DNA from: Pontibacter populi | GTDB taxonomy: Bacteria; Bacteroidota; Bacteroidia; Cytophagales; Hymenobacteraceae | NCBI RefSeq assembly: GCF_019336435.1 | Contig: NZ_JAHWXQ010000006.1 | Coordinates: 1-64,000, forward strand | Reading direction: 5' to 3' | DNA length: 64,000 nucleotides | The notes under the pieces: generated by a model | What the model saw: the letters and a program-made list of their open reading frames with translations, nothing else | Database searches by the model: none | Told to the model about the DNA's origin: nothing | Shown: piece after piece, positions 1 through 64,000 of the stretch | How the letters are laid out: each line of letters starts with the position of its first letter | Numbering within the stretch: the first letter of the stretch is position 1 | Made by a program: the position numbers and the translations under genes

Positions 1-96
1 TATAGTAGCTCTCGCTGCTGTAATGGAGGTTTTTCTTCCGTTCCAGTTACTGCGCCTCTTTCCAACTTCTCACTTCCCTTCCTGCTGAACGGGTTG

Positions 97-126
97 CAAA
101 AGTACGCACTCTTTGTTAAGATGCAA
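97..126 (-). promoter_or_regulatory. Bacteroidota-type promoter firing out of the window
   Basis: On the minus strand TTG (124-126) lies 19 nt from TACTTTTG (97-104), matching the primary sigma consensus TTTG-N19-TAnnTTTG. The predicted transcript starts with a CAACCCG-like leader and runs off the left edge. Such leaders often precede rRNA operons in this phylum, but no rRNA is visible, so the target is unknown. Confidence 0.5.
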
Positions 127-366
127 GGCCCGATGCAGAAGTTTTTCTGTGTGCACCGCTAAGTGGCTGATTACGAAAAGATTCTTTTTCAGCCTGTGTT
201 CCCGACACCGGCTATAGATGCCTTGCCCGGCTTTCCGCTTACTTTCTTTCTTCGTATTCCTTTGCCCGGCGGCCCCGGACGTGAAGTGATAACAAGTAAA
301 GGATCCGGGAAAGTTCCCTTATAGTATCAGATTTCTTACTTATCAACTTTACTCCTTTATAAAACA

Positions 367-394
367 AAAGCCCCGCTATAGTTAGCGGGGCTTT
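367..394 (-). terminator. Rho-independent terminator with CTATAG in the loop
   Basis: A perfect 12-bp stem (AAAGCCCCGCTA/TAGCGGGGCTTT) closes a 4-nt loop. On the minus strand it is followed by TTTTGTTTT, so it terminates the DUF2480 transcript. The loop and upper stem carry CTATAGTT. Confidence 0.9.
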
Positions 395-430
395 CCTGAT
401 CATTAGATCTCTTCTCTATTATAGTAGCAA

Positions 431-940
431 CTATACTTTTGGCTTTTTATATAAAGGCACGGTACTGCATGGCTCACCATACATTACGCTGCTTACTACC
501 GGTAATAATTTCTGCATGATCTCAACATAAGCGAATGTAGGCACTGGTATACTTCCGCATCCTTTGATCACTACTTTACCTTCGCGATACTCTTCCGGAT
601 CTATTTTAGCAATTGCTTCCTTAAGCAGCGACTGCTCTAATGCTTCCAGATCTCCGAATACGTAATGGTTTGCATGATTCTGGAGTTTGGTAGCCAGCAG
701 CATGTAAGCCCAGGTTGGAACTATAGCATCGGCTGAACAAATAATGGCAACGTTTTTACCATCATAAGCCGTCCAGTCATTCTCCTTTATAAAAGCTCTG
801 AAATCTTTCTCTCTCAGCATTAGCCCATGAAAGAGATTTTCTTTGATATCATATACTACACGCTCGCCGGGGTGCAGCAGTTCTTCCAGGTTTATAGTTA
901 CGAGCGCACTTTGTGCTACTTTGTTTATCAGCTCTGACAT
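431..940 (-). CDS. DUF2480 family protein
   Basis: This 169-residue soluble protein resembles the DUF2480 family, which is essentially confined to Bacteroidota and has no established function. It has no signal peptide or membrane segment. The middle section (about residues 55-105) reads as an alternating alpha/beta domain, and a conserved-looking GCGSIPVPTFAY stretch lies near residues 127-138. It starts 11 nt after the tsaB stop, so the two are probably co-transcribed, and a strong terminator follows. Family assignment rests on overall sequence recognition; the role is unknown. Confidence 0.75.
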   Translation of the reverse strand: MSELINKVAQSALVTINLEELLHPGERVVYDIKENLFHGLMLREKDFRAFIKENDWTAYDGKNVAIICSADAIVPTWAYMLLATKLQNHANHYVFGDLEALEQSLLKEAIAKIDPEEYREGKVVIKGCGSIPVPTFAYVEIMQKLLPVVSSVMYGEPCSTVPLYKKPKV

Positions 941-951
941 ATTGTTATTTT

Positions 952-1644: not shown

Positions 1645-1665
1645 TCTGTTTATAGTTGTGTACTG

Positions 1666-1696
1666 CAAAAGTACTGCACACGAACGATGCATACAA
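1666..1696 (-). promoter_or_regulatory. tsaB promoter
   Basis: The minus strand shows TTG (1694-1696), a 20-nt spacer and TACTTTTG (1666-1673), an almost ideal Bacteroidota promoter. Transcription would begin near 1658-1662, which rules out the upstream start codon at 1692 and supports ATG 1644. Confidence 0.7.
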
Positions 1697-1777
1697 CTAT
1701 ACTATAATAGTGTCGGTCTTAAAGCAAAAAGGAGACACTTTGCAGCATCTCCTTTGTTTTATAGTTTACTTATAACC

Positions 1778-3454
1778 TTATTTTGATTTCACTTTCAGGT
1801 AAGATGCATATTTCTGAGGATCATTCAGCACATTCTTCGCCATTATAATATCCTGGTCATCGTCGAAAGATGCTTCGATGTAGCCTTTCTGCAGATAATA
1901 GCGTGAGGCGATCTCGGCCTCCAGCATTTCCTGTATCTCAGGGCGGAAACGCTGCAGATCGTTGGATTTGTTATGCGACACTTTTTTACGGATAGCATCG
2001 AGTTCGCTCTTTATATCATCGTAATGTTTTCCTTCTTTTGATTTGTCAGTCAGCTCCACAAGTTCCTGCTCTACTGTTGTAGTATAAGACACATCCTTAT
2101 CAGCCAGGAAAGCAACAAACTTCTGGTAATCGGCATCCGATAACTGGAAGTCTTTGGCAGAAGCTATAGTTGGGTGCTCTGCTTTATATTTGTTGGCAAA
2201 CTCAAACAAGTAGCCTTTGCCAACTATAGTTCGGGCAATCTCAGAGTATTCGGTTTGTGGCACTTCCACATCCGGGCTGATACCACCACCATCATACACC
2301 ACACGACCACCGGCAGTTTTAAAAGCTACCCTTAAAGAATCCGGAATAGAGGCCACGCTGCCATCTTCGTTGCGGTGTGAATAATCTATTGCCTGAATGC
2401 AACGGCCACTTGGCGTATAGTATTTAGCTGTTGTTACTTTTAGTTGCGAGTTATAAGATAGTGGTCGGGTGGCCTGCACCAGTCCTTTACCAAAGGTACG
2501 CTCGCCTACCAGAACCGCCCTGTCATAATCCTGCATAACGCCGGCTACAATTTCGGCTGCCGATGCGCTGCGGGAACTGGTAAGCACAACCAATGGCACT
2601 GATTTATCAAGCGGCTCATCTAAGGCTTTGTAGGTTTTATTCCACTCTTTTACTTTACCCTTGGTGCTAACGATGTCTTTGCCTTTGTCAACAAATATGT
2701 TCGAGATGTTTACAGCTTCATGCAGCAGACCACCCGGGTTATCGCGCAGGTCAAAGATTATCTTCTTGGCGCCCATCTCCTTTAGTTTCTGAACCGCCTG
2801 TTTTACTTCTCTGGAAGCATCCATGGTAAAACCTGAAAGCTGGAAGTAGCCGATCTCGTTATCAAGCATACCAATATAAGGCACGTTCTCTACTGTTATA
2901 TTAGCCCGAAGCAGCTCAACGGTACGAGGCTTTGTTTGTCCGTAGCTTTTGATCTCCAGTTTTATAGGGGTATTTGCTTGTCCTTTGAGCAGTTTGCTTA
3001 CTTCAGCAGATGGTTTGCCTGTCACATTAACGCCATCAATTTTCAGGATCTGGTCGCCTATAGTTAGCCCGGCTTTCTGCGCCGGCGAACCTTCGTAAGG
3101 CATCTGGATCACTACTTTACCATCATGCACACCAATTCCTGCCCCAATACCACCATACTGGCCAGTGGTCATGGTACGGAAATCTTCGATATCGTCTTCG
3201 GGAATATAGTTGGTGTAAGGATCCAGCGATTTAAGCATGGCATCAATACCGGTACGCATCATTTGTGCAGGTGGCACTTCATCCACGTAATAGGTATTTA
3301 CTTCTTTAAAAAGGGTGGCAAATACGTCGAGGTTTTTAGCAATCTCGAAGTAACGGTCAGAGTCAGATTTAAAAGATACCAGGCCCAGGCCTACACCAGC
3401 CACTAAAATGCCGGCGATATATTTTTTATACATAATTTTCGGGTTAGAGAACAA
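1778..3454 (-). CDS. S41 family C-terminal processing protease
   Basis: This is a CtpA/Prc-like serine protease that cleaves envelope proteins at their C termini. An N-terminal hydrophobic segment (about residues 11-28) exports or anchors it. A PDZ domain follows (about 95-175; GGIGAGIGV, GDQILKIDGV), then the S41 core with FDLRDNPGG near 234-242. The catalytic serine lies in SASAAE (296-301) and the partner lysine in TFGKG (K323). At 558 residues the length is normal for Bacteroidota CTPs. ATG at 3433 (MYKKYIAGI) is an alternative start. It begins about 7 nt after the rnpA stop, suggesting an rpmH-rnpA-ctp transcript. Confidence 0.92.
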   Translation of the reverse strand: MFSNPKIMYKKYIAGILVAGVGLGLVSFKSDSDRYFEIAKNLDVFATLFKEVNTYYVDEVPPAQMMRTGIDAMLKSLDPYTNYIPEDDIEDFRTMTTGQYGGIGAGIGVHDGKVVIQMPYEGSPAQKAGLTIGDQILKIDGVNVTGKPSAEVSKLLKGQANTPIKLEIKSYGQTKPRTVELLRANITVENVPYIGMLDNEIGYFQLSGFTMDASREVKQAVQKLKEMGAKKIIFDLRDNPGGLLHEAVNISNIFVDKGKDIVSTKGKVKEWNKTYKALDEPLDKSVPLVVLTSSRSASAAEIVAGVMQDYDRAVLVGERTFGKGLVQATRPLSYNSQLKVTTAKYYTPSGRCIQAIDYSHRNEDGSVASIPDSLRVAFKTAGGRVVYDGGGISPDVEVPQTEYSEIARTIVGKGYLFEFANKYKAEHPTIASAKDFQLSDADYQKFVAFLADKDVSYTTTVEQELVELTDKSKEGKHYDDIKSELDAIRKKVSHNKSNDLQRFRPEIQEMLEAEIASRYYLQKGYIEASFDDDQDIIMAKNVLNDPQKYASYLKVKSK

Positions 3455-4129: not shown

Positions 4130-4266
4130 GCAGGCGCTGGATATTTTGTACAAATATAGCAGGTTTTTATCAGAGCTACAGTAAAAATATCAATTATAGC
4201 GCAGTACGAGTATAAAATGGCACAGCATAAACCTGTAAATTTATCGCATCAACTATAGTTTAAACT

Positions 4267-7597: not shown

Positions 7598-7955
7598 TAC
7601 CGGGGATGCATTTTTGGCTAAAATTTTTCTAAAACAAGCTCCTGTAACTATAAGCTGCTAGTTATAAATAAGTTGCCATGATGCGCCTTATTTGCATTAC
7701 CTCGCTAAGCCTTTACGAAGGACAACGCTCTTTCGGACATCTGTGTCCGAAAGCCCTCTGCCGGGGATTTCCTAATCCCCGTGTTGCAAGTAACGCGGAC
7801 TAGGAAGTCCGCAGCAGAATTGGTTCCGGACATGGATTTCCGAAACAGCAAGGATGCCCGAAACAATAAGTTGTTGAATTTGTAACTAAACTGGGCCAGA
7901 GGGGCCCAACTATAGCAAGTCACGTGCGAGGAGGCTCGCGCCATACAACTATAGT
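7598..7955. other. Intergenic region with clustered small hairpins
   Basis: This spacer has no believable gene; a 79-codon minus-strand frame runs through the hairpins and reads as low-quality sequence. Its content is the hairpin cluster at 7731-7908. Confidence 0.6.
7731..7908. repeat. Cluster of four short perfect hairpins (REP-like)
   Basis: Four compact palindromes follow one another: TTTCGGACA/TGTCCGAAA (7731-7752), CGGGGATT/AATCCCCG (7762-7781), GCGGACT/AGTCCGC (7795-7812) and TGGGCC/GGCCCA (7892-7908). Each has a 4-5 nt loop. None has a T-tract, so they are not terminators. Similar modules occur at 31790-31836 and 31470-31487. Confidence 0.75.
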
Positions 7956-8324
7956 TTACTTACTCAGCTTTGTACCGCACCACGGGCAATAATTGATCAC
8001 TACCATGGTAGCGCCGCCGTTGTGCACTGGTATACCATAAAAGCCTTCATCCCATTTATTGATCACTACATCCGGGTCGTCGTACTTTATCTCTCCTTGC
8101 TCGTCCAGACTTTCGAATACTTTATCGGCCATCATCATGCAGCAATAACTTTCGTAGTTAAAACCCGCGGACGTTAGCTTTTCGGTAGTGGCCCAGTTGT
8201 AGCAATCCTCGTCTTCATGTATGGCATCGGCATAGGCCTCATACTCCTCCGATTGCAGCACTTCCTCCGGCAGCTCTTTCCCGAAAAATCGGGCGTGCAG
8301 TGCTTTAAATCTTTCTAACTCCAT
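7956..8324 (-). CDS. Hypothetical protein with CPWCG motif
   Basis: This acidic 122-residue protein ends with NYCPWCGTKLSK. A second cysteine pair lies in SYCCMMMADK (about residues 59-68). The four cysteines could bind a metal ion, but that is inference. No signal peptide or membrane segment is seen. It starts 15 nt after the pyrC stop and is probably co-transcribed with it. I do not recognise a named function; similar small CxxC-tail proteins are widespread and uncharacterised. Confidence 0.75.
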   Translation of the reverse strand: MELERFKALHARFFGKELPEEVLQSEEYEAYADAIHEDEDCYNWATTEKLTSAGFNYESYCCMMMADKVFESLDEQGEIKYDDPDVVINKWDEGFYGIPVHNGGATMVVINYCPWCGTKLSK

Positions 8325-8339: not shown

Positions 8340-9674
8340 CTAACGGTCAAATAACAGGCGCTCCCCTTTTTTGCTTTCATCAAACGCCCCGTTACTATAA
8401 GCCAAATGTCCCGAAACTATAGTTGAAACTATAGTTGAACTGAACGTATGGCCTTCGAACGGCGACCAACCACATTTATAGTAGGTGTTCTCTTTAGTAA
8501 CGGTGTAGAGTTTGTTCAGGTCTACCAGCACCAGGTCGGCCCAGTAGCCTTCGCGTAAGTAACCGCGCTCGCGCACGTTAAACAGGATGGCCGGTGCATG
8601 GCACATTTTCTCCACTACTTTCTCCAGTGTCAGTTTGCCCTGCTTTACAAACTCCAGCATCATCTGCAGCGAGTGTTGAATAAGCGGCACACCGGATGGT
8701 GCTTGTTTGTACTTGCCTTGCTTCTCTTCCCATAAGTGCGGGGCGTGGTCGGTAGCAATGACGTCCAGTTTATCTTCCAGCAATCCCTTTAATAAACCTT
8801 CTTTGTGGCGATGCTCTTTTATGGCCGGGTTACATTTTATCTGGGTACCAAACGTATCGTAATCTTCTTTATCGAACCACAGGTGATGCACGCAAACTTC
8901 GGCAGTAATGCGTTTCTGCTCCAGCGGAATATCGTTGCGGAAAAGCTTCAGTTCTTCTTCGGTAGAGATGTGCAGTATGTGCAGGCGGGTATTGTGTTTC
9001 TCAGCGAGCTTTACCGCCAGGTAAGATGATTTAAAGCAGGCTGCTTCGTTACGGATCTCGGGATGACATTTAACCGGAATATCTTCTCCATACTTTTCCT
9101 CATACAGGGCCATATTATCGCGGATGGTCTGCTCATCTTCGCAATGCACTGCAATCGGCAGTTTGGCCTTGGCAAATATCTGCTCCAGCGTTTCGGCATT
9201 ATCTACGAGCATGTTCCCCGTGGAAGATCCCATAAATATCTTGATGCCGCACACTGTGTTCGGATTGGTAAGCAACACTTCGGACAGGTTGTCGTTGGTG
9301 GCACCCATGTAAAAAGAGTAGTTCGCCAGCGACGTTTCAGCCGCTACTTTATATTTCTCTTCCAGAAATTCCTGGGTTACGGCATTCGGAACGGTATTTG
9401 GCATCTCCATAAAAGAAGTGGTTCCACCCGCCACAGCTGCTCTTGCTTCCGAACCTATAGTTGCTTTATGCGTCAGGCCGGGCTCCCGGAAATGTACCTG
9501 GTCATCTATCACACCGGGCAACAAGTGCAAACCGGTCGCATCTATCGTTTGGTCAGCTTCTATAGTTATAGTTTGCCCAATCTGCGCAATGCGTCCGTCT
9601 TTTACCAGTACATCGGCAGTGGATATAGTTCCTTCGTTTACGAGTTGGGCGTTTTTAATAAGTATGGATTTCAT
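8340..9674 (-). CDS. pyrC: Dihydroorotase
   Basis: This 444-residue amidohydrolase catalyses the reversible cyclisation of carbamoyl-aspartate to dihydroorotate in pyrimidine synthesis. Features include DDQVHFREPG at 57-66, the candidate carboxylated lysine K145 in KIFMGSSTG, metal-ligand histidines near H177 (VHCED) and H235 (LHILHIST), and the catalytic Asp309 in ATDHAPH. The usual DxHxH opening reads D57-D-Q59-V-H61, so the first metal histidine is glutamine. The same substitution appears in related Bacteroidota enzymes as I recall them, so activity is expected. The ATG at 9674 is the natural start. Confidence 0.93.
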   Translation of the reverse strand: MKSILIKNAQLVNEGTISTADVLVKDGRIAQIGQTITIEADQTIDATGLHLLPGVIDDQVHFREPGLTHKATIGSEARAAVAGGTTSFMEMPNTVPNAVTQEFLEEKYKVAAETSLANYSFYMGATNDNLSEVLLTNPNTVCGIKIFMGSSTGNMLVDNAETLEQIFAKAKLPIAVHCEDEQTIRDNMALYEEKYGEDIPVKCHPEIRNEAACFKSSYLAVKLAEKHNTRLHILHISTEEELKLFRNDIPLEQKRITAEVCVHHLWFDKEDYDTFGTQIKCNPAIKEHRHKEGLLKGLLEDKLDVIATDHAPHLWEEKQGKYKQAPSGVPLIQHSLQMMLEFVKQGKLTLEKVVEKMCHAPAILFNVRERGYLREGYWADLVLVDLNKLYTVTKENTYYKCGWSPFEGHTFSSTIVSTIVSGHLAYSNGAFDESKKGERLLFDR

Positions 9675-9788: not shown

Positions 9789-9817
9789 TACTATAAACTA
9801 TAGTATACATTATTCCC

Positions 9818-11243: not shown

Positions 11244-11696
11244 TTAAAAGAAAGCGGCGGCCAAATGCTTAAATTCGAGAACGAACAAGGTCAGGCACAG
11301 CCCCCAGAAAACAGAGCTCCAGAGCATGTGCACAAAAATGCGTTTGCGCGAAGCACCAAATAAGGCGGCAACTATAGTTCCAACTATAGGTGTGAGTAAA
11401 ATAGGGGTTAAAAAAGCGATGCCGGTTACGCCAAATTTCTGCCATACTTTTACGATACGGCGGTTCTTGTTAGAAAAAACAGGTTTTTGCTGTTGTCTTC
11501 TGCGCTTCGATATCCATTTTGAGAAAGCATTACCGATGATTGAGAAAACAAGTACGCTCGTCATCATACCGGCCACTGTAAACAAAACCGTTTCCGTATA
11601 CGACAGCCCCAGCGATATACCCGTAACCGGTCCGGCAAAGAATTTCACCATACTTATTAAGTACACCGACAAATATTTCAGGATTTCTACCAACAC
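11244..11696 (-). CDS. Small multi-pass membrane protein
   Basis: This 150-residue protein has about four hydrophobic segments (near 5-30, 33-55, 93-112 and 122-145) and a strongly basic loop KWISKRRRQQQKPV (about 60-73) that should face the cytoplasm. The GVTGIAFLTPILLTPIVGTIVAALFG region resembles the small multidrug-export/DedA-like membrane proteins, but this is a loose resemblance. It is a single-gene unit convergent with the helicase. The function is unknown. Confidence 0.75.
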   Translation of the reverse strand: MLVEILKYLSVYLISMVKFFAGPVTGISLGLSYTETVLFTVAGMMTSVLVFSIIGNAFSKWISKRRRQQQKPVFSNKNRRIVKVWQKFGVTGIAFLTPILLTPIVGTIVAALFGASRKRIFVHMLWSSVFWGLCLTLFVLEFKHLAAAFF

Positions 11697-11878
11697 GTTG
11701 CTTTCTTCTTAAATTGTATTCCTACTTATTGCTATTCACTTTACACCCTGTATACGAAAAACACAGAATAAAATATAGCATTTTTCAAACAATGCAATTT
11801 CAAAAATCAGTCTATACATAAAGCCAAGCTATTGACTAACAGGCTACTATAAACTATAGTTCAGGTTTTTACCTGTTG

Positions 11879-18357: not shown

Positions 18358-18525
18358 CAGCTTTACCGGAACTATACCAGCCAGCCACTTTTTCAGTACT
18401 GCAATTCGTCCATAAAAGGCTGTAACTGATTATCTTTACCGGCAACAGCAAAAACCGGAATTTATTTTCTTTGGCAGGTGTTCCGGCTCAAATCAATTTC
18501 AACTTGTACTTCCTTATCAGAAAGT

Positions 18526-20064
18526 ATGCTCATTAAAACATTTGGCAGTGCCGTGCAGGGCGTAAATGCCTACACTATAACGGTAGAGGTCAGCGTAAGC
18601 GCAGGCACAAAATATTTCCTGGTTGGTTTACCCGACAATGCAGTTAAAGAAGGCGAACAGCGCATTGAGGCCGCACTAAAGCATTACAACTATAAAATGC
18701 CGCGCCAGAAAGTGGTCATCAACATGGCTCCTGCCGACATCCGTAAAGAAGGTTCCTCCTACGACCTGACTATAGCGATGGGTATTTTGGCTGCCTCCGG
18801 CCAGATAGCTCCTGATAAGGTTTCGCAGTACATGATCATGGGGGAGTTGTCGCTGGATGGGGAGCTGCGGCCAATTAAAGGAGTATTACCAATTGCGATA
18901 CAAGCCCGCAAAGAAGGTTTTAAAGGAATTATTTTACCCGCCCAGAATGCTAACGAAGCAGCTATAGTTAATAACCTGGATGTTATCCCTGTAAGAACGA
19001 TACAGGAAGCGATTGACTTTCTGGATAACAGGCTGGAGATTGAGCCGATGCAGGTAAATACCCGCGAAATGTTCCAGAACCAGGTAGACCAGTATGCCGC
19101 CGACTTTGCCGATGTGCAGGGGCAGGAAAACATTAAACGCGCCCTGGAAATTGCTGCAGCCGGCGGTCACAATTTAATTATGATCGGACCTCCGGGCGCT
19201 GGTAAAACCATGCTGGCAAAACGACTGCCCTCTATCTTGCCGCCACTCTCGATGCACGAAGCGCTGGAAACGACCAAGATACATTCGGTAGCAGGCAAAC
19301 TAGGCGAAGCATCTTCTTTATTAACAACACGCCCTTACCGCTCTCCGCACCATACGATATCTGATGTAGCACTTGTAGGTGGAGGTGGCGTACCACAACC
19401 CGGTGAGATATCCTTATCGCATAACGGCGTTTTGTTTCTGGATGAGTTGCCGGAATTTAAGCGCACCGTGCTGGAAGTTATGCGACAGCCTTTGGAGGAA
19501 AGACGGGTAACTATATCCAGAGCAAAAACCACGATAGATTTCCCGGCTAACTTTATGCTGGTGGCCAGCATGAATCCTTGCCCATGTGGATACTATAATC
19601 ATCCGGAGAAGGAATGTGTTTGCGGCCCTGGTGTAGTGCAAAGGTACTTAAATAAAGTGAGCGGCCCGCTTTTAGACCGCATTGACCTGCACGTGGAGGT
19701 TACGCCGGTAACGTTTGACGAAATGACAGCTACCCGCAAATCAGAAGACAGCACTACAGTTCGTGAAAGGGTAGTGCAGGCAAGGGCAGTGCAGCAGGAG
19801 CGCTTTAAAGATTTTCCGCAGATACACTCTAATGCCATGATGCCGTCGCAGATGGTAAAAGATATTTGCCAGATAAACGAAGCCGGCAGAACCTTACTGA
19901 AAACGGCTATGGAGCGCCTGGGTCTTTCGGCCCGTGCCTACGACCGCATCCTGAAAGTAAGCCGAACTATAGCCGACCTGGCTGACAGTTCTGAAATAAA
20001 AATTGAGCATTTGGCAGAGGCTATTCAGTACCGTAGTTTAGACCGCGAAGGCTGGGCGGCTTAA
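18526..20064 (+). CDS. YifB/ComM family Mg-chelatase-like AAA+ ATPase
   Basis: ComM homologues are hexameric branch-migration helicases that promote integration of transforming DNA. From ATG 18526 the product is 512 residues, the family length; an upstream GTG at 18478 adds 16 atypical residues. The N-terminal GSAVQGVNAYTITVEV module is followed by Walker A GPPGAGKT (near 221-228), HHTISDVALVGGG, MNPCPCGYY with a small cysteine cluster, and LDRIDLHVEV. The C-terminal lid includes ARAYDRILKVSRTIADL. The gene stands alone and a terminator follows. Confidence 0.92.
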   Translation: MLIKTFGSAVQGVNAYTITVEVSVSAGTKYFLVGLPDNAVKEGEQRIEAALKHYNYKMPRQKVVINMAPADIRKEGSSYDLTIAMGILAASGQIAPDKVSQYMIMGELSLDGELRPIKGVLPIAIQARKEGFKGIILPAQNANEAAIVNNLDVIPVRTIQEAIDFLDNRLEIEPMQVNTREMFQNQVDQYAADFADVQGQENIKRALEIAAAGGHNLIMIGPPGAGKTMLAKRLPSILPPLSMHEALETTKIHSVAGKLGEASSLLTTRPYRSPHHTISDVALVGGGGVPQPGEISLSHNGVLFLDELPEFKRTVLEVMRQPLEERRVTISRAKTTIDFPANFMLVASMNPCPCGYYNHPEKECVCGPGVVQRYLNKVSGPLLDRIDLHVEVTPVTFDEMTATRKSEDSTTVRERVVQARAVQQERFKDFPQIHSNAMMPSQMVKDICQINEAGRTLLKTAMERLGLSARAYDRILKVSRTIADLADSSEIKIEHLAEAIQYRSLDREGWAA

Positions 20065-23381: not shown

Positions 23382-24029
23382 TTATCTTTTGCGACCAATG
23401 GTAATGTTGGCTTTACTTTCCTCACCGGCAATCAGGCGGTTTATGTTCTTGCGGTGCGTAATAACCACGATGGCAAAAAGTATAAATCCGAAAATGATCA
23501 GGATTGGGTTATCCGGGTGGAAATGCGGGTGCAGCAGCAACAGCATCGGGAAAGCCAGCGCCGCGATCATTGAACCAAGCGAAACGTACTTGGAGACAAA
23601 CAGCACGATGACAAAAACCACGATACAAACAAGAGCCGCTTCGGGCTGTATTGCCAGCATCATACCTAACAAAGTAGCCACGCCCTTTCCGCCTTTAAAC
23701 CGCTCATATACCGGGAAAATATGTCCTACAACGGCCAGCATACCCATTAAAAGCTGAAAAACGATCAGGTTTTCTGCCGGAATGGCATCGAACAACACCA
23801 ATAAATTGGCAAGTGATGTAGCCGCCCATCCTTTAAAAATATCGATGAGCATAACTATAGTTCCCGGCTTTTTGCCCAATACCCGGAAGGTATTGGTTGC
23901 ACCGGAGTTACCACTACCGTGCTTGCGGATATCGATACCATAATACCATTTACCCAGCCAAACCGCCGTACAGATAGAACCAATAAGGTAAGCAGCTACA
24001 AAAAGTATAGCTATAAGAAGTATATTCAT
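23382..24029 (-). CDS. plsY: Glycerol-3-phosphate acyltransferase PlsY
   Basis: PlsY transfers an acyl group from acyl-phosphate to glycerol 3-phosphate, the first step of phospholipid synthesis, in the inner membrane. The 215-residue protein has about five membrane helices and the three PlsY motifs: GSGNSGATNTFRVLGK (near 38-53), KGGKGVAT (near 113-120), and the region after VVGHIFPVYERF. Length is normal. It is a single-gene unit with a terminator. Confidence 0.94.
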   Translation of the reverse strand: MNILLIAILFVAAYLIGSICTAVWLGKWYYGIDIRKHGSGNSGATNTFRVLGKKPGTIVMLIDIFKGWAATSLANLLVLFDAIPAENLIVFQLLMGMLAVVGHIFPVYERFKGGKGVATLLGMMLAIQPEAALVCIVVFVIVLFVSKYVSLGSMIAALAFPMLLLLHPHFHPDNPILIIFGFILFAIVVITHRKNINRLIAGEESKANITIGRKR

Positions 24030-31962: not shown

Positions 31963-31984
31963 CGTCTATTAGCTATAGTTCCAA

Positions 31985-36366: not shown

Positions 36367-36463
36367 CTATAGACTGAGCTCACGTAACTATAGTTTAAAC
36401 TTATAACCTACTGCCATCTATTCCCCGTATTAGGAGGCATCAGCTAACTAACTAAAACTACTT

Positions 36464-38832: not shown

Positions 38833-39701
38833 TTGTTTTATAGTTGACGTTTTAACTTATCCTTCCTGAGAGGAGAATTACCCATCCCATCCCTATCCTA
38901 AAAACAGGAGAGGAAGTTTTGTCAGTATCTGGATTTAAGGGATTAATGGATTGGTCTTTTGCTATAGTTGAAGTTATAGTTCTATAGTCAGCGTGGTCCA
39001 ACCACCCCTTTATCCCCTCCTTGTCTAAGGCGGGGAGCTTTAGGCTACCGCTATAGTTGGAGTTATAATTCAAAGTTGCGGTATTAACCCACCCCTGCCC
39101 CTCCCAAGAGGGGAATTTCTGTAAAGGCTATAATTGGTAGCTAAAGTTCTATAGTTACTGTTTGTCATCCCCCTACCCCCTTCAAAGGGGGACTTTCTGC
39201 TATCACCAATTTCTAAACTATAGTTTTATTGTTCCAGCCCACGAGCAGGACAGGTTCACCTGTCCCCTTGGAATTCTGGCCACGATAAAGCTCGAAGCTT
39301 ACCAATTCAGATTATAGATAAGCTTAGCTATGCGAAACTTCTCAGTCTTTGGGTTGAGCGCCTTGTAGATTTCTGGTACCGAAGGTATTGTGAGGCACGA
39401 ACAAAAGAAATGTACACCGCGCGATGCCCGAAGACGGGGCCTCCCGGCCGTGAGGGCACCAAAGTCAACCATAAAACGGTTGGCAAGTAAAGCTCCCAGG
39501 ATTAAAGTAAATTTGAAAGGAAGGCTTGGCTCGGGTTGCAATTATAATCAACTATAGAACTCAAATTTCCCCTAACGTCGGAATGACAAAAAGTAAACTA
39601 TACCCTACTAATATACTGATACTGACTAATGTCATTTTATAGCCACAGCTTATACCCTATACTTGCATCGTAGAAAAGTATTGACTGAGAAACGAGCTGC
39701 A
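38833..39701. other. Intergenic repeat-rich region B
   Basis: It holds the inverted composite repeat (38925-39545) and further module remnants at 38868-38915 (CCTATCCTAAAAACAGGAG). No real gene is visible. A minus-strand frame at 39299-39541 again reads ALTAGRPRLRASR from the repeat. Confidence 0.75.
38925..39545 (-). repeat. Composite dispersed repeat, copy B (inverted)
   Basis: Read on the minus strand this has the same modules as copy A in the same order: AACCCGAGCCAAGCCTTC, CACGGCCGGGAGGCCCCG, AAGGCGCTCAACCCAAAGAC, the hairpin GGACAGG/CCTGTCC (39248-39265), CCCCTCTTGGGAGGGGCAGG, AAGCTCCCCGCCTTAGACAA, GTGGTTGGACCACG and AATCCATTAATCCC. Sequence between modules differs. It has one additional GGGGGTAGGGGGATGAC block. 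Confidence 0.85.
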
Positions 39702-42041: not shown

Positions 42042-42081
42042 AAAAGCCTGCTGTAACTATAGTTGCGGCGGGCTTTTTTTT
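42042..42081 (+). terminator. nth terminator with CTATAGTT in the loop
   Basis: AAAAGCCTGCTG pairs with CGGCGGGCTTTT using two G-T pairs, around TAACTATAGTTG, with eight T residues after. Confidence 0.85.
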
Positions 42082-43277: not shown

Positions 43278-43970
43278 ATGTTCCTAGGTCATTTTGCTGT
43301 TGGTCTGGCAGGTAAGGCCGCAGCGCCAAAACCATCACTTGGCACTTTATTCCTGGCTGCGCAGCTCCTCGATCTGCTCTGGCCTACGCTGTTGCTGCTA
43401 AACCTGGAGCAGGCACAGATTGCGCCAGAGCCGGGTGTGCTGGTACCGCTTAAGTTTACCCACTACCCAATCTCGCATAGTTTTCTGCTGGTGCTAGGCT
43501 GGGGCTTGCTGTTTGGGCTGGTGTATTGGCTTATTAAAAAAGACTCACGCTCGGCAGTTGTGCTGGGTTTGCTGGTTGTCAGCCATTGGCTTTTAGATCT
43601 TATAGTTCACGTGCCGGATCTTCCGCTCTACCCCGGCGATTCGCCTATGCTTGGGCTGGGACTCTGGACATCAACTATAGCAACTATAGCTGTGGAAGGC
43701 CTGCTGTTTATAGTTGGGCTGTGGCTGTACCTGAGAGCAACAAGAGCAAAGAACAAGACCGGCAACTATAGTTTCTGGGCACTGGTGGTATTCCTGGTTG
43801 TTATCTATTTCATGAACCTGTTCGGACCGGTGCCGCCAAGTATGGAGGCCGTAGCATGGGGAGGGCAAATGCAGTGGCTGCTTATTATCTGGGCATACTG
43901 GGCCGACCGTAACCGTGAAACTATAAACTATAGTGCATCAGATCATCAAACTATAGCTCCTGCCGCATAA
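43278..43970 (+). CDS. YdjM-like membrane-bound metal-dependent hydrolase
   Basis: This 230-residue inner-membrane protein has five to six hydrophobic segments, an N-terminal FLGHFAVGLAGKA, and the conserved histidines of the YdjM family: THYPISHSFLL (near 61-71) and VSHWLLDLIVHVPDLPL (near 100-116). These fit the membrane-bound metal-dependent hydrolase group. The substrate is unknown. It ends 4 nt before the next gene, so it is probably co-transcribed with it. Confidence 0.75.
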   Translation: MFLGHFAVGLAGKAAAPKPSLGTLFLAAQLLDLLWPTLLLLNLEQAQIAPEPGVLVPLKFTHYPISHSFLLVLGWGLLFGLVYWLIKKDSRSAVVLGLLVVSHWLLDLIVHVPDLPLYPGDSPMLGLGLWTSTIATIAVEGLLFIVGLWLYLRATRAKNKTGNYSFWALVVFLVVIYFMNLFGPVPPSMEAVAWGGQMQWLLIIWAYWADRNRETINYSASDHQTIAPAA

Positions 43971-44477: not shown

Positions 44478-45680
44478 CTATCGTTTTGCTACATTTTCAA
44501 GTATGGCTTCTACCTCTTTTACCAATTCCCTTCTGTCAAAAAGTTCTCTTGCTATAGTTACCCCATTACACCCGGCCTTTTGTAGGGCTTCCGGGTTATC
44601 TAACACCTGTTTTATAGTTTGAGCGAGCTTGGTGGGTTCTTCTGCCGGCGAGTACCAACCACAACTATAGTTCTCCACAAAAGCTTTTGTCCAGCCGGGG
44701 TTGGTAACTATAACGGGTGTACCGCAGGCAAGGCTGTCATAAAACTTGGCCGGGGAATTAGACTGCAGCACAGGCAGATCATTAAACGTAACCAACGACA
44801 GGTCAGCTAACTTAAACAAGCCAAATACCTGGTCGCGGGATTGGGGTGGCAGCAACAGCAAATTAGGTACGCGCTGCGCCAGTTCATGAAGTTGAGACTC
44901 ATAATAGCCTGTTCCGGTTAATATAAAGACTATAGCCGGGTCATTTGCCAGCAACTCTACAGCCTGCATTATAGTTGGCATATCATTAGCGCGGCCATAA
45001 GTACCTGCATACAAAACGACCTGTTTGCCTTGTAGCTTATAGTTTGCCCGGTGCTCCTCAACATCAGCTTCGGTTACAGCCTCCGCTTTCTCAATGTCGG
45101 TTCCGTTCAGTATAGTGGTAACTTTTGCCGGATCTATTCCTTTCGCCACTACATAAGCTGTCATGTCCGGGGAGAGGGTAATGATGTATGCCGCACTTTT
45201 GTATAGGCTATATTCCATTTTAAAAAGCAGGCGCTGCATCCATTTATACTTCACGGCTCCCATCTCAACCGGGAAACTCGGCCAAAGATCCTGCACTTCA
45301 AAGACCCAGGGCACGTTGCGTAGCCTGGCAACCTGCGCTACTACAAATGGCACCGACAAAGGCACCGAAACCGCCCATAGGATATCCGGCTTTTTCAGGC
45401 GCATCAGTTTATAAAATGCACAGGCAGCAAATCCAACAAACGATAGCATTCGCAGCACCACGCCCATTTTATTGGCATACGCTACGGTACATTCTTTCAG
45501 CTCCACTCCTTCCGGTACCCAACTATAGTTTTGCGTTACGAGCAGCTTACGCCAGGCATTGGTGGCTACCAGCGTTATTTTGTGCCGCCGGGCCAGCTTC
45601 TCCATAAAAGAATATTGCCTGCAAGTAGCCGGGCAATCCGGGCTGGCGTGGTGCTGGTGTAAAATGGTGACGTGCATCAA
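44478..45680 (-). CDS. Glycosyltransferase family 4
   Basis: This 400-residue GT-B fold enzyme has N-terminal HQHHASPDCPATCRQYSFMEKLA (WbuB-like opening) and a mid VLYAGTYGRANDMPTIMQAVELL. Its donor-binding C-terminal region contains KFYDSLACGTPVIVTNPGW with the typical E-x7-E-like end. It would transfer a sugar from a nucleotide donor in LPS or exopolysaccharide synthesis; donor and acceptor are unknown. It lies 17 nt after gldB in the same direction. Confidence 0.88.
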   Translation of the reverse strand: MMHVTILHQHHASPDCPATCRQYSFMEKLARRHKITLVATNAWRKLLVTQNYSWVPEGVELKECTVAYANKMGVVLRMLSFVGFAACAFYKLMRLKKPDILWAVSVPLSVPFVVAQVARLRNVPWVFEVQDLWPSFPVEMGAVKYKWMQRLLFKMEYSLYKSAAYIITLSPDMTAYVVAKGIDPAKVTTILNGTDIEKAEAVTEADVEEHRANYKLQGKQVVLYAGTYGRANDMPTIMQAVELLANDPAIVFILTGTGYYESQLHELAQRVPNLLLLPPQSRDQVFGLFKLADLSLVTFNDLPVLQSNSPAKFYDSLACGTPVIVTNPGWTKAFVENYSCGWYSPAEEPTKLAQTIKQVLDNPEALQKAGCNGVTIARELFDRRELVKEVEAILENVAKR

Positions 45681-50561: not shown

Positions 50562-50875
50562 TTTCTTGAGTTTTATGAATTATAAAATATGATAAATTTC
50601 CAATATTGAGTGGCGGCAATTGCACCAAGTCCGTTATTTTCGGGGCACAAAGGTAATTTTACTTTTCGAGATGTAAAAGTTTTATGCTTAAATTATTAAC
50701 TATAAATTCCTAATTCTTAAGCCCATCTACTCAGTTCGTTACAAAGGTACAATATAAATTTCCCGGGCCCACGTTGCACAACTATAGTTATTTTAACACG
50801 CACGATTTGCCCAAGTCATCAGAACAAAACTATAACTTTATCAGTTCTACTTTACCACCTGCTCCCTGATTGTAT
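50562..50875. other. Divergent promoter region between HU and mutY
   Basis: A 314-nt AT-rich spacer. It has minus-strand TACCTTTG boxes at 50648-50655 and 50742-50749 (CAAAGGTA on the plus strand) and two TAATTCTTAA-type words near 50700-50720. No gene or RNA is recognised. Confidence 0.5.
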
Positions 50876-54507: not shown

Positions 54508-54579
54508 AGTTGGTTGTTACAGATTTCCGCTTTTTTCTCAGAAAACAGTAAACTATAGTTGATATTTAAACATACTTCT

Positions 54580-55111: not shown

Positions 55112-57211
55112 TTGAGCAACTTCTTCCATACTAAGATCGAGTTTCTGAAAGGAATAGGCCCCATGCGTGCCGAGCTGTTGCAGAAAGAGCTCAACATGTA
55201 TACCTATGGCGACCTGATACAGCATTACCCCTTCCGTTACTTAGACCGTACCCAATTTTACAAGATTGCTGAGCTCGATGAAACTATGCCGTATGTGCAG
55301 GTGCGCGGGCGTGTACGTGGCAAGCAATTGCTGGGTGAAGGCCGTAAACAACGCCTGGCTGCTACCCTGGTAGATGAAGCCGGAGATGAAATGGAGCTGG
55401 TTTGGTTTAAAGGTGTGAAGTGGATGGAGAAAAGCCTGAAGAACCACACCGACTATATTGTTTTCGGGAAGCCTACAGAGTTCAACGGCAAGTTTAATAT
55501 GGCGCACCCGGAGCTGGAAGAACTGGCTGAAGAAAAACAGACAACATCCTTCCTGCAGCCGGTTTACAATACAACCGAAAAGCTGAAAAACCACCGCATC
55601 GATAGTAAAGTGATCTCGAAATACATCGAGTCATTACTGAAGATAGCTGCACTCCACATACAGGAAACCTTATCACTGGACCTGATAGACCATTACCGCC
55701 TGACCGACAAACGAAGTGCGTTACAGAATATCCACTTCCCGGAATCGGTGGAGAAGTACAATGCGGCTAAGTTCAGGCTTAAATTCGAAGAGCTTTTTTA
55801 CATACAGCTGCGCCTGTTACGCCAGAAAGTAGTGCGCCGCGCCGACCTGGCCGGGCAGATTTTTAAACAGGTGCCAACGGTAACAGAGTTCTACAAAAAC
55901 CACTTGACCTTCGACCTGACCGGGGCACAGAAGCGGGTTATAAAAGAGATCCACAAAGACCTGACATCAGGAAAGCAAATGAACCGCCTGCTGCAGGGCG
56001 ATGTGGGCTCGGGCAAAACTATAGTTGCGTTTATAACTATGCTGATTGCAGCAGATAACGGGGCACAGTCGGTACTAATGGCGCCAACTGAAATATTAGC
56101 AGACCAGCACTATACCGGTCTGAAAGAATTTGCTGACCGCTTAGGTATTAAGATCGGCAAACTTACAGGTTCCAGCAAAACAAAAGAACGTCGCGAACTG
56201 CACGAGCAACTCCGGTCCGGCGAGATGAAGATGATCGTGGGCACACATGCCTTGCTCGAAGACGTGGTACAGTTTCATAACCTGGGCTTGTGTATAGTAG
56301 ATGAGCAGCACCGCTTCGGCGTGGAGCAGCGTTCCAAACTATGGCGCAAGAATCCGCGCATTATTCCGCATGTATTGGTCATGACAGCTACTCCTATTCC
56401 GCGCACGCTGGCAATGACCTTGTATGGCGACCTGGATGTTTCAGTGATAGATGAAATGCCGGCCGGCCGTAAAGAGATCGTTACTGTTCATCGTTTTGAT
56501 TCTCACCGTTTGCGTGTATTCCAGTTTGTTCGGGACCAGATAAAGTTAGGCCGCCAAATCTATATAGTTTACCCGCTGATTGAGGAATCGGAGCAGATGG
56601 AGAACTATAAAGACCTGATGGATGGCTATGAAAGTGTGAGAAGAGCCTTCCCGGAGTATCAGGTTAGCATGGTGCACGGCAAACTGAAAGCACAGGACAA
56701 AGATTACGAAATGCAGCGCTTCGTGAGGCACGAAACCCAGATTATGGTAGCCACCACCGTAATTGAAGTGGGCGTGAACGTGCCGAATGCTTCGGTGATG
56801 ATCATAGAAAGTGCGGAGCGCTTTGGCTTATCGCAGCTCCATCAGTTGCGTGGGCGAGTGGGTCGAGGAGCCGAACAAAGCTACTGCATTCTCATGACGG
56901 GTTATAAACTCAGCAAAGACAGCAAGACCCGCCTGGAGACCATGGTACGCACCAACAATGGCTTCGAAATAGCTGACATAGATCTGAAACTACGCGGCCC
57001 CGGCGATTTGATGGGAACACAGCAAAGCGGTGTACTCGACCTGCTGATTTCAGACCTTGCCAAGGATGCACCTATACTTCAGGAAGCACGCGCTGCTGCA
57101 CAAAATATCTTACAGGAAGACCCGCAACTCGAACATGCCGAACATCAGAACATCCGCAGGCACATCCAATCGTTAAGCGCTAATACTGTAAACTGGAGCC
57201 GTATCAGCTAA
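55112..57211 (+). CDS. recG: ATP-dependent DNA helicase RecG
   Basis: RecG remodels stalled replication forks and branched DNA. The 699-residue protein has the wedge domain (about 60-150, YVQVRGRVRGKQLL), helicase Walker A GDVGSGKT (near 293-300), DEQHRFGVEQR (DExH) and QLRGRVGRGAE. The reading frame starts at TTG 55112 (SNFFHTKIEFLKGIGP); no upstream ATG exists and the family start matches. Confidence 0.95.
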   Translation: MSNFFHTKIEFLKGIGPMRAELLQKELNMYTYGDLIQHYPFRYLDRTQFYKIAELDETMPYVQVRGRVRGKQLLGEGRKQRLAATLVDEAGDEMELVWFKGVKWMEKSLKNHTDYIVFGKPTEFNGKFNMAHPELEELAEEKQTTSFLQPVYNTTEKLKNHRIDSKVISKYIESLLKIAALHIQETLSLDLIDHYRLTDKRSALQNIHFPESVEKYNAAKFRLKFEELFYIQLRLLRQKVVRRADLAGQIFKQVPTVTEFYKNHLTFDLTGAQKRVIKEIHKDLTSGKQMNRLLQGDVGSGKTIVAFITMLIAADNGAQSVLMAPTEILADQHYTGLKEFADRLGIKIGKLTGSSKTKERRELHEQLRSGEMKMIVGTHALLEDVVQFHNLGLCIVDEQHRFGVEQRSKLWRKNPRIIPHVLVMTATPIPRTLAMTLYGDLDVSVIDEMPAGRKEIVTVHRFDSHRLRVFQFVRDQIKLGRQIYIVYPLIEESEQMENYKDLMDGYESVRRAFPEYQVSMVHGKLKAQDKDYEMQRFVRHETQIMVATTVIEVGVNVPNASVMIIESAERFGLSQLHQLRGRVGRGAEQSYCILMTGYKLSKDSKTRLETMVRTNNGFEIADIDLKLRGPGDLMGTQQSGVLDLLISDLAKDAPILQEARAAAQNILQEDPQLEHAEHQNIRRHIQSLSANTVNWSRIS

Positions 57212-61889: not shown

Positions 61890-61898
61890 ATTGATAAG

Positions 61899-61930
61899 AT
61901 TTTAGATGCTAGATTTTAGATATTAGATTT
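61899..61930. repeat. Left inverted heptamer repeat of the IVP cassette
   Basis: TTAGATG-type units (TTTAGATGCTAGATTTTAGA and on to TATTAGATTT) lie between the acyl-CoA dehydrogenase start and the IVP stop, overlapping the last codons of IVP. It is an inverted partner of 62285-62320. Confidence 0.75.
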
Positions 61931-62281
61931 CTTGATTATGGAGTTTTTAAAGCTATAGATCATCTTTTGTATCTGCTCTAGTTGGTCTTGCAAAACAGAA
62001 AGAGAAGATTCAGTAATTATTCCAAAAGAATTTGCTAAGAGAAGCTGAGTCTCTAACTCAAAGGCTGACCCAAGTGCTATACTTAAAAAATGAGCAAATT
62101 CTTTAGGTGAATTTCTGCCTGCTCCTTCTGCAATATTAGATGGTATAGAAACGGCTGCTCTGTTGATTTGAGATGTTAGACCATATCTTTCATTCCCTGG
62201 AAATGTAGCTGTTGTTTCATAAACGGCCTTCGCCAGCTCCATTGATCGCTGCCAGATCTTTAAGTCCTTAAAGCTGTGCAT
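61916..62281 (-). CDS. Four-helix-bundle protein (23S rRNA intervening-sequence family)
   Basis: This 121-residue protein has the S23/IVP family signature: MHSFKDLKIWQRSMELAKAVY, GLTSQINRAAVSIPSNIAEGAGR and a long C-terminal helix. Relatives were first found in 23S rRNA intervening sequences and also include the Avd helper of diversity-generating retroelements, but no reverse transcriptase or template repeat is present here. It sits between thiolase and acyl-CoA dehydrogenase, flanked by inverted TTAGAT repeats, so it looks like an inserted cassette. Biological role unknown. Confidence 0.85.
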   Translation of the reverse strand: MHSFKDLKIWQRSMELAKAVYETTATFPGNERYGLTSQINRAAVSIPSNIAEGAGRNSPKEFAHFLSIALGSAFELETQLLLANSFGIITESSLSVLQDQLEQIQKMIYSFKNSIIKKSNI

Positions 62282-62284
62282 AAA

Positions 62285-62320
62285 ATAAGTCTAACATCTA
62301 AAATCTAACATCTAGCGTCT
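62285..62320. repeat. Right inverted heptamer repeat of the IVP cassette
   Basis: Its reverse complement reads GCTAGATGTTAGATTTTAGA then TGTTAGACTT, matching the left repeat but with one extra 7-nt unit. It ends at the thiolase stop codon (62319-62321). Confidence 0.75.
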
Positions 62321-63497
62321 ATTTCAGCAATTCATAGATACCGGCTACACCCTGGCCGCCACCCACACAGGCGGTTACCATGCCGTACTTTTTGCCTATG
62401 CGGCGAAGTTCATGGAATTGCTGGATAGAAAGCTTAGCGCCGGAGCAACCAAGCGGGTGACCTAAAGCAATAGCTCCACCACTTATGTTGAGCTTAGCAG
62501 GATCAAAATCCAGGTGGCGCATAACAGCGATAGACTGGGCAGCAAAGGCTTCGTTCATCTCGATCAAGTCGATGTCGTTCAGCGTCATGCCAGCCATTTT
62601 CAAAGCTTTTGGCACAGCTGCAATTGGCCCCATACCCATGATACGCGGATCAACACCACCGGAAGCATAACTTACCAGCCTGGCAATTGGCTCCAGGTTC
62701 AGTTCTTTTACCATGCGCTCGCTCATAACTATAACGAAGGCAGCACCATCAGAAGTCTGAGAAGAGTTACCAGCCGTTACCGAACCACCTGCTGCAAATA
62801 CTGGCTTTAAGCGAGCTAAGGCTTCCATAGAAGTATCCGCTCTTGGGCCTTCATCAGTATCTACCACATAAGTGCGGGTCTTTTTCTTGCCGTTCTCGTC
62901 CAGGTAAGTTTCTTCAACGGTTATCGGCACGATCTGCTCCTTAAAGTAGCCGTTCTTGATCGCGTTGATAGCTTTCTGATGCGAATGGTACGCAAACTCA
63001 TCCTGGTCTTCGCGGGTAACCTTATAGTCTGCAGCCACAGCCTCAGCTGTTAAGCCCATGCTCAGGTACCAGTCCGGGTTGTTTTTCGCGATAGTATAGT
63101 TCGGCACTGTTTTCCAACCAACTGTTGGCACCAGCGACATCGATTCTGTACCGCCGGCAACTATACAGTCAGCCATACCAGCCGAGATGCGGTTTGCGGC
63201 TATAGCTATAGTTTCCAGACCAGAGCCGCAGTAGCGGTTCACGGTCATACCAGAAACCGACATTGGCAATGCCAGCAACGAGATCATTCGACCTATCTGT
63301 AAGCCCTGCTCAGCTTCCGGCACCGCGTTACCAACTATAAGGTCGTCTACACGCTCCGGGTCCAAGGCTGGCACTGAGGCCATTAAATGTTTGATGACAT
63401 CAGCGGCCAGGTCATCAGGTCTGGTGAACCGAAATCCGCCACGGCCCGCTTTACCCACGGCGCTACGAAATCCGGCTACGATATATGCATTGTTCAT
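62319..63497 (-). CDS. Acetyl-CoA C-acyltransferase (thiolase)
   Basis: This FadA-type thiolase catalyses the last step of beta-oxidation. The 392-residue protein has the active-site cysteine in NRYCGSGLETIA (near 90), the histidine in GGAIALGHPLGCSGAK and the terminal CVGGGQGVAGIYEL with its second catalytic cysteine. It is downstream of the hydroxyacyl-CoA dehydrogenase gene; the intervening 89 nt contains AT-rich repeats. Confidence 0.95.
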   Translation of the reverse strand: MNNAYIVAGFRSAVGKAGRGGFRFTRPDDLAADVIKHLMASVPALDPERVDDLIVGNAVPEAEQGLQIGRMISLLALPMSVSGMTVNRYCGSGLETIAIAANRISAGMADCIVAGGTESMSLVPTVGWKTVPNYTIAKNNPDWYLSMGLTAEAVAADYKVTREDQDEFAYHSHQKAINAIKNGYFKEQIVPITVEETYLDENGKKKTRTYVVDTDEGPRADTSMEALARLKPVFAAGGSVTAGNSSQTSDGAAFVIVMSERMVKELNLEPIARLVSYASGGVDPRIMGMGPIAAVPKALKMAGMTLNDIDLIEMNEAFAAQSIAVMRHLDFDPAKLNISGGAIALGHPLGCSGAKLSIQQFHELRRIGKKYGMVTACVGGGQGVAGIYELLK

Positions 63498-63585
63498 ATT
63501 TTCTAATTGCTAAATTGTTAAATGGTTGATTGTTGATTTCTCTTTAAGAGCTTAATCATTATTCATTACCCATTATTCATTAGTC
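63498..63585. repeat. AT-rich repeat tract upstream of the thiolase gene
   Basis: TCTAATTGCTAAATTGTTAA-type words (63502-63535) resemble the tract at 7338-7378. A second set of direct words (CATTATTCATTA, CATTATTCATTAG, 63556-63583) follows. Both lie in the fadB-thiolase spacer. Confidence 0.6.
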
Positions 63586-63586
63586 A

Positions 63587-64000
63587 TTAATTTCTCAGCG
63601 GCTTGCCTGTGGTCAGGATGCTCTGGATACGCTCCAGTGTTTTGCGCTCACCTGTCAGGGACAGGAAGGCTTCACGCTCCAGGTCTAGCAGGTACTGCTC
63701 GCTCACTTCGGTTGGGGCGGACAAGTCGCCACCGCACATCACATAAGCCAGTTTCTGAGAGATTTTCAGGTCGTGCTCAGACATATAGCGGCCGGTCATC
63801 ATGGCATTGGCACCTGTCAGGAACATACCCAACGCGCCTTTGCCCTGCACCTTAATGTTGGTGCGTTGTACCGGTTTAACATAACCAGCGTCTGCCAGAA
63901 GTATTGCCTGCGCTTTGGCGTCGGCTATCAGGCGGTTGCTGTTTATAGTTATGCCATCCGATTTGCGCATAAAGCCCAGGTCTACCGCTTCTTTAGCCGA
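63587..64000 (-). CDS. 3-hydroxyacyl-CoA dehydrogenase/enoyl-CoA hydratase, C-terminal part (partial)
   Basis: The frame is open to the right edge of the window and covers the last 137 residues. It reads SAKEAVDLGFMRKSDGITINS, then AKAQAILLADAGYVKPVQRT and LDLEREAFLSLTGERKTLERI, matching the C-terminal hydratase-type region of the bifunctional fatty-oxidation protein of Bacteroidota. It precedes thiolase in the same operon. The 5' part lies outside the window; a start codon inside the window is not implied. Confidence 0.85.
   Translation of the reverse strand, partial: SAKEAVDLGFMRKSDGITINSNRLIADAKAQAILLADAGYVKPVQRTNIKVQGKGALGMFLTGANAMMTGRYMSEHDLKISQKLAYVMCGGDLSAPTEVSEQYLLDLEREAFLSLTGERKTLERIQSILTTGKPLRN

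Follow-up and report, generated by a model that had tools for sequence, protein, structure and literature searches.

A dispersed sequence word with clade-specific dialects in Pontibacter, possibly a DNA-uptake signal

A word-rich stretch and its genome

The window analysed here is a 64,000-nucleotide stretch of Pontibacter populi (contig NZ_JAHWXQ010000006.1, positions 1 to 64,000; contig 8 of the 11-contig genome set). A short word recurs throughout it, in genes and spacers. The word was counted as the half-site AACTATA/TATAGTT, as the hexamer CTATAG, and as the palindrome AACTATAGTT. The window and its copies of the palindrome are listed below, with no strand assigned.

1..64000: word-bearing window, with 215 half-sites, 106 CTATAG and 20 AACTATAGTT
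2222..2231: AACTATAGTT, formed by two overlapping AACTATAG on opposite strands
4251..4260: AACTATAGTT
7947..7956: AACTATAGTT
8415..8424: AACTATAGTT, coding; AGG-dialect orthologues differ (alignment)
8427..8436: AACTATAGTT, coding, 12 bp after the 8415 site (alignment)
11370..11379: AACTATAGTT, coding, in the window's genome only, among 11 aligned (alignment)
11852..11861: AACTATAGTT
23853..23862: AACTATAGTT, coding, in 3 of 12 aligned genomes (alignment)
31510..31519: AACTATAGTT
31983..31992: AACTATAGTT
35989..35998: AACTATAGTT, coding
36386..36395: AACTATAGTT
39216..39225: AACTATAGTT
42055..42064: AACTATAGTT, common to six AAC-clade genomes (the seventh, G191, is outside coverage) and G195
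43764..43773: AACTATAGTT, coding
44663..44672: AACTATAGTT, coding
45521..45530: AACTATAGTT, coding
50780..50789: AACTATAGTT
54551..54560: AACTATAGTT
56017..56026: AACTATAGTT in recG, encoding Thr-Ile-Val; in 7 of 7 AAC-clade genomes and 0 of 8 others aligned

An earlier note, made by reading the window alone, had claimed that CTATAG is over-represented, and this was confirmed. In 100 dinucleotide shuffles the hexamer occurred 16.2 times on average (standard deviation 4.2, maximum 29), far below the 106 copies seen. For the first 9.8 kb, the note's count of 21 CTATAG is reached by including a copy that starts at 9798; 20 lie wholly inside. Its expectation that the Markov-corrected ratio would not be near 1 also held: under an order-3 model, trained on the same, already motif-rich DNA, the observed-to-expected ratio was 2.5 for CTATAG, 9.4 for AACTATAG and 25 for AACTATAGTT (0.79 expected).

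The excess is real and extends over the entire genome, whose 4,304,021 bases (11 contigs) contain 1,124 copies of AACTATAGTT and five of its reversed control. The close relative G174 was sampled as 60 roughly evenly spaced 20-kb pieces, 1.2 Mb in all. Its half-sites were spread round the whole chromosome, the palindrome being present in 58 and the half-site in all 60 of the pieces. The genome-wide count and the G174 samples rule out a single transferred segment. Carrier genomes had a 7-mer about every 300-800 bp, with copies on both strands. In the G174 sample, GC-richer pieces had a higher density of half-sites (rho 0.42, 60 samples), even though the word is AT-rich. No repeats of at least 500 bp, looked for as a test for insertion sequences, were found in the sample.

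What is enriched is an asymmetric 7-8-mer, AACTATA[G/A], and not the palindrome proposed in the earlier note. The palindrome is two copies of this unit overlapping on opposite strands, and two of the three related forms of the word described below (AAC, AAG and AGG, named after the first three bases) favour a non-palindromic form. Alignment on the 7-mer revealed little information outside one base 5' and three bases 3'. AACTATA was followed by G (0.54) or A (0.31), and AAGTATA by A (0.57). AGGTATA was preceded by C (0.53) and followed by G (0.53), then C (0.45). Within AACTATAGTT, the central two bases were near absolute, and positions 2 and 9 tolerated most change.

Palindromes exceeded the number expected under independence in all three forms: 198 of 954 copies for AAC (64 expected), 50 of 1,050 for AAG (AAGTATACTT, 8 expected) and 48 of 685 for AGG (AGGTATACCT, 24 expected). 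Such an excess would follow if copies counted on whichever strand they lay, since an overlap then yields two. The palindrome is common in the AAC form because the preferred following G also completes a copy on the opposite strand.

Hairpin arrays were seen beside the word. Between genes of G174, GC-rich hairpin modules (e.g. ACCCCTGCCCCTCC...GGAGGGG) form mosaic arrays (L183:4300-5050, L189:15280-16170, L178:2400-3180), whose linkers are packed with the home word (GCTATAGTTNNNNNTATAGTTCTATAGTT). Nine hairpin-module strings had counts of 11-67 in the 1.2 Mb of G174. In one hairpin module each of G176 and G148, the flanking words resembled the genome's own dialect. Peaks in the spacing of neighbouring CTATAG in G174 (8 and 18-21 bp) came largely from these word-containing arrays, and were not used as a signal.

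Dialects across the genus

When 204 genomes of the family were scanned for AACTATAGTT, abundance was confined to one genus. Among its 50 genomes, five, the window's included, had 1,087-1,477 copies, two had 330 and 232, one had 104, and 42 had 0-28. The 154 genomes of five other genera had 0-8 copies. Orthologous stretches outside the window's clade looked motif-poor at first, and their top words revealed that the AACTATAGTT-poor relatives mostly bear a sister word. The top word was AACTATA in the window's clade, AAGTATA in G195, G178, G189 and G148, and AGGTATA in G177, G192, G176 and G151. Both AAGTATA and AACTATA were top words in G159 and G191, which are clearly mixed genomes.

Dialects were typed from orthologous stretches of 27-60 kb (14 relatives), 20-kb samples (the other 35) and whole-genome counts. 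With class limits of more than 200 palindromes for AAC, more than 15 times the control for AGG and more than 10 times the control for AAG, AAGTATAA (AAG) was assigned to 20 genomes, AGGTATAG (AGG) to 12, the AAC form to seven and none to 11. G161, G159 and G191 passed both the AAC and the AAG limits. There were 449-1,472 copies of AAGTATAA per Mb in the 20 genomes and 657-1,187 of AGGTATAG in the 12, with reversed controls of the carriers about 13 to 88 times lower. In the 11 non-carriers, AAGTATAA and AGGTATAG reached at most 4.8 times the controls. None of the 154 genomes of other genera exceeded about 3.4 times the control for either word, as judged by eye from the tables.

The TATA core is constant among dialects, the adjoining positions carry the dialect, and the general form of the signal is A-[A/G]-[C/G]-TATA-[A/G]. 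Comparison with other genomes of the genus and family, suggested in the earlier note, turned the window's word into one dialect of a genus-wide set. The note had seen the genome-scale excess correctly, but only part of the picture, missing the unit and the dialects.

The dialects follow the species tree. In a tree of six proteins from the same locus in 50 genomes, the 12 AGG genomes formed one group (support 100), and so did the seven AAC genomes (support 72; 100 in a 15-genome tree), among them the mixed G159 and G191. The non-carriers sat in about four places. On these trees, which were unrooted or midpoint-rooted with no outgroup, the widespread AAG form is probably ancestral.

Several observations were made alongside. 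Pontibacter fetidus BT213 also had paired sites, among the 80 of 107 loci listed. The 11 word-less genomes were larger than the 39 carriers (medians 5.8 and 4.6 Mb, kinship ignored). Depletion of GCTAGC in the AAC group was weak and uneven. In the word-free Pontibacter G181 (L247, 20 kb), CTATATA/TTATATA was raised, as a local repeat or another word. In G012, of another genus and with 60% GC, GAGGTAG, GGGTAGG and GGTAGGC were raised about 3.5 to 7 fold in 20 kb (L260), which might be another dispersed word in its genus. The uncultured Bacteroidales metagenome-assembled genome RUG12444 was rejected as a carrier of the same word: AACTATAGTT stands there in tandem arrays with 22-bp spacing (L025, L034, L043, L059, L074), apparently unrelated to the dispersed word.

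Rewriting of sites, with effects on codon choice and possibly on proteins

Sites arise by substitution in place. In the 16 coding palindrome columns that were aligned, a gap fell inside the word in one orthologue only, and bases were replaced instead. Since the word substitutes aligned bases, insertion of a mobile repeat was ruled out at coding sites; some non-coding sites aligned with indels. At the recG site (56017), all seven AAC-clade genomes had AACTATAGTT, and the eight others had GACCATCGTA, AACAATTGTG, AACGATAGTT and similar. When AACTATA sites of G000 were compared with four AGG genomes, at least two of the seven positions differed in 333 of 371 comparisons, which count most G000 sites several times. 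The differences included transitions and transversions at every one of the seven positions.

Among the five AAC-rich genomes, palindrome columns were more conserved than the flanking bases in 19 of 20 ordered comparisons (G000-G155: 1.0 versus 2.4 differences per 10 bases, 9 sites). Between these genomes and the four AGG genomes, they varied more than the flanks in 20 of 20 (G000-G176: 4.7 versus 2.8, 7 sites). G159 and the AAG genome G195 were intermediate; against G195, columns exceeded flanks in none of five. There were 16 columns in total, and only one site in some comparisons.

In 14 cross-dialect comparisons, 5-21% of one genome's sites held the other genome's own word. The AGGTATA sites of G176 read AAGTATA in G195 in 11 of 52 cases (0.06 expected by density; 1 of 395 in shifted controls). 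From G000, 9 of 101 sites were rewritten in G195 and 5 of 91 in G176. Density alone would give 0.03-0.13 sites, and shifted controls gave 0-0.9%. As homologous sites swap dialects, the sites form one class whose spelling changed.

Compared with genomes of the other dialects, AAC-rich genomes had CTATAG enriched about 17-fold, both inside and outside coding DNA. Within genes, taken as open reading frames (ORFs) from a simple ORF caller, codon choice was affected in each dialect. Thr-Ile was written ACT.ATA in 249 of 463 cases in AAC genomes (a 7.4x effect; 3.1x in AAG, 1.8x in AGG), Ser-Ile AGT.ATA in 142 of 529 in AAG (8.9x; 3.4x in AAC, 2.5x in AGG), and Gly-Ile GGT.ATA in 190 of 511 in AGG (6.4x; 1.1x in AAC, 1.8x in AAG). 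All three effects were 1.5-1.7x in ten non-carriers. G163 is not among these ten non-carriers, nor are G159 and G191 among the AAC genomes of this count. Five AAC genomes together spelled 32 of their 42 Thr-Ile-Val tripeptides ACTATAGTT, with about 2% expected; sites of related genomes are not independent.

The word also seems to bend protein sequence. Thr-Ile pairs numbered 53.5 per 10,000 codons in AAC genomes, 28.4 in both AAG and AGG, 24.1 in non-carriers and 36.7 in five genomes of other genera. The AAC frequency was thus 1.9 times that of the other Pontibacter dialects and 1.5 times that of the other-genus genomes. Amino acids differed from AGG orthologues at 402 of 1,059 site codons and 13,087 of 57,547 other codons (four genomes summed), and the sites may sit at looser positions.

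What may read the word, and comparison with known systems

The pattern as a whole requires a reader, presumably a sequence-specific protein: each site needs several directed changes, the core stays constant, the outer positions change clade by clade, some genomes are mixed, and others lack the word. We give about even chances to a DNA-uptake signal, with a sequence-specific reader of drifting specificity, spread by biased natural transformation. The reader would most likely be a surface or periplasmic receptor for natural transformation, although we are less sure of this step. Word-bearing DNA would be preferentially taken up and recombined, so that chance mutations towards the word would spread. 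The reader's specificity may have drifted, AGG and AAC each being derived once from a probably ancestral AAG, and substitutions would then have converted each genome's sites where they stood. In lineages where the reader disappeared, the word would have gone as well. More tentative is the full history, in which an uptake-signal system without type IV pili evolved independently, its receptor shifted in specificity two or more times and disappeared about four times in the genus, and G159, G191 and G161 were caught mid-switch.

Among the comparisons drawn in the earlier note, DNA uptake fits best, given the dialects, the shared core, the mixed genomes and the lack of polarity; a HIP1-like methylation target fits poorly. 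Uptake is also favoured because dispensability and rapid turnover suit molecular drive. It is further favoured since dialects that follow clades around a conserved core, and one genome with two dialects, are documented for the DNA uptake sequences (DUS) of Neisseriaceae (Frye et al. 2013, PMC3630211).

The competence genes were surveyed in the 50 genomes. A ComEC match and HHH_3 proteins, which we take to be ComEA-type, were found in 50 of 50, the non-carriers included, and both were rejected as discriminators of carriers. In the single-contig carrier G166, which retains AAGTATAA at about 461 per Mb, comEC lies in two frames, and the gene of the 314-aa HHH_3 type is apparently broken (L273:1000-3100, L274). 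The window holds one further gene of note, given for context only.

18478..20064, + strand: Mg-chelatase-like AAA protein (Pfam Mg_chelatase, ChlI)

We take this protein to be of the YifB/ComM family. In Riemerella, breaking a gene annotated as YifB-family lowers transformation (PMC8459023).

Several results weigh against an uptake signal. comEC does not go with the word: each of the 11 non-carriers has an open comEC frame, 707-736 codons long, whereas the carrier G166 has a split one, G186 a stop within the matched region, and G184 a frame of only 561 codons. A real type IV pilus or type II secretion ATPase was found in none of the 50 genomes (PF00437 gave weak partial matches, in three of 50 just over the cut-off; pilins were not searched), and without this ATPase the known class of receptors, the pilins, is probably missing. 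No receptor candidate or reader protein was found, in a survey that did not search dprA and comF. Riemerella transforms with a gene set different from the pilus-based one (PMC8459023). The codon effects are not fully specific to their dialect (3.4x for AGT.ATA in AAC, 3.1x for ACT.ATA in AAG). The evidence from acquired DNA, which would favour uptake, is only suggestive: one G174 stretch (L180:1-20000), an island with a phage-type integrase and HipA-like and AbiEii-like genes, had 11 half-sites in 20 kb, compared with a mean of 62, and a second word-poor stretch (L188) also bears an integrase, but the other word-poor stretches of G174 hold ordinary or unclear genes and cannot be recognised as islands. 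Finally, a chromosome-binding protein of drifting specificity would leave nearly the same marks.

Such a protein is the main rival, and a nucleoid signal had also been named in the earlier note. A protein that organises, replicates or repairs the chromosome would bind the word, whose density direct selection would keep up while the protein's specificity drifted. All that the sequences show (dialects, rewriting, copies on either strand and in genes as in spacers) fits this without uptake, and so do the distribution of comEC and the absence of the pilus ATPase. We nevertheless consider it less likely than uptake. Eleven genomes of the genus do without the word, which is therefore dispensable, and its occupancy is extreme, as in the spelling of Thr-Ile-Val. 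We know of no nucleoid protein with such a dialect history; clade dialects, a constant core and mixed genomes are documented for uptake sequences.

The earlier note had also raised a methylation target, which is disfavoured. On this HIP1-like reading, an orphan DNA methyltransferase would act on the word, whose copy number would rise through repair or selection that depends on the methylation. The studied cyanobacteria with a highly over-represented sequence all have a putative matching methyltransferase (PMC4390886). The AAC form is palindromic, and all five AAC-rich genomes have a PF00145 match. Those proteins look non-orthologous by length and matched segments, with no alignment made, and PF00145 is absent from the mixed AAC genome G191, yet present in non-carriers such as G154, G175 and G183. 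PF01555 is absent in four and PF02086 in three of the five AAC-rich genomes. The carriers G150, G156, G162, G166 and G172 lack PF01555, PF02086 and PF00145. Four of them have strong matches to PF02384, a family typically of type I enzymes. The exception is G156 (4,958 AAGTATAA, control 158), with only two marginal PF02384 matches (E 7e-5 and 4.5e-4; 23.0 and 20.6 bits, cut-off 20.4), in ORFs whose sizes recur across the genus. No methyltransferase common to all carriers was found in these four families, the only ones searched, and none of them tracks the word. With two of three dialects non-palindromic as well, we regard methylation as improbable.

Equally improbable is a context-dependent mutation or gene-conversion bias that makes the word with no reader. 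The similar enrichment of CTATAG in coding and non-coding DNA would suit it. Against it, a gain needs several different changes per 7-mer, and palindrome columns are less variable than their flanks within AAC and more variable against AGG genomes, though not against G195. A polar signal of the Chi or KOPS type, serving recombination or chromosome segregation, is the least probable reading: such words are likewise frequent, short and genome-wide, but 1,886 of 3,716 half-sites lay on the GC-skew-positive strand of G174, the one genome examined for polarity, with a skew correlation (rho) of 0.03.

In the open-licence literature, we found no paper on natural competence in Pontibacter and no uptake signal sequence or word in Bacteroidetes/Bacteroidota, the broader matches listed being judged by title. 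A search for AACTATAGTT returned malaria titles among the matches listed. The genus thus offers a dialect-structured, genome-wide word in a phylum with none found in that literature. It combines three dialects, mid-switch genomes and repeated absences. Comparisons within it can test ideas about dialect change, the decay rate of old sites and the consequences of signal loss for the genome. Should the reader be an uptake receptor, the system opens pilus-free, sequence-selective transformation to study; if not, the word belongs to an unknown chromosome-wide DNA-binding system.

If it serves uptake, the Pontibacter system would be, to our knowledge, the third kind after those of Neisseriaceae and Pasteurellaceae, and the first in Bacteroidota. 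The Pasteurellaceae uptake signal is likewise a short genome-wide word on both strands, with about one copy per kb. Its word is unrelated, its uptake is based on type IV pili, and it has fewer dialects than Pontibacter.

Riemerella shares the phylum Bacteroidota with Pontibacter, in which ComEC and HHH_3 proteins are found. Transformation of Riemerella needs ComEC, DprA, ComF, RecA, an HHH protein and others, with no type IV pilus gene in the part of the study's mutant table considered (PMC8459023). As a difference, the term 'uptake sequence' occurs 0 times in that paper.

The cyanobacterial HIP1 and related HIPs resemble the Pontibacter word in being over-represented, varying among lineages and having the most constrained positions at the centre (Elhai 2015, PMC4390886, which also names Chi). 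HIPs are palindromes with a matching putative methyltransferase, whereas two Pontibacter dialects are non-palindromic (after TATA, AAG prefers A and AGG prefers G), and no match was found in the families searched.

The DUS of Neisseriaceae differ in several respects. Pontibacter belongs to Bacteroidota, and has no type IV pilus ATPase and so probably no ComP-type receptor. Two Pontibacter copies often overlap into a palindrome, and 11 of 50 Pontibacter genomes lack the word, compared with none of the Neisseria genomes examined in that study (PMC3630211). The likenesses are closer. Both are short, non-palindromic words in thousands of copies, with dialects that track the tree around a constant core (CTG in Neisseriaceae, TATA in Pontibacter), and both groups include a two-dialect genome and some members with no obvious word (PMC3630211).

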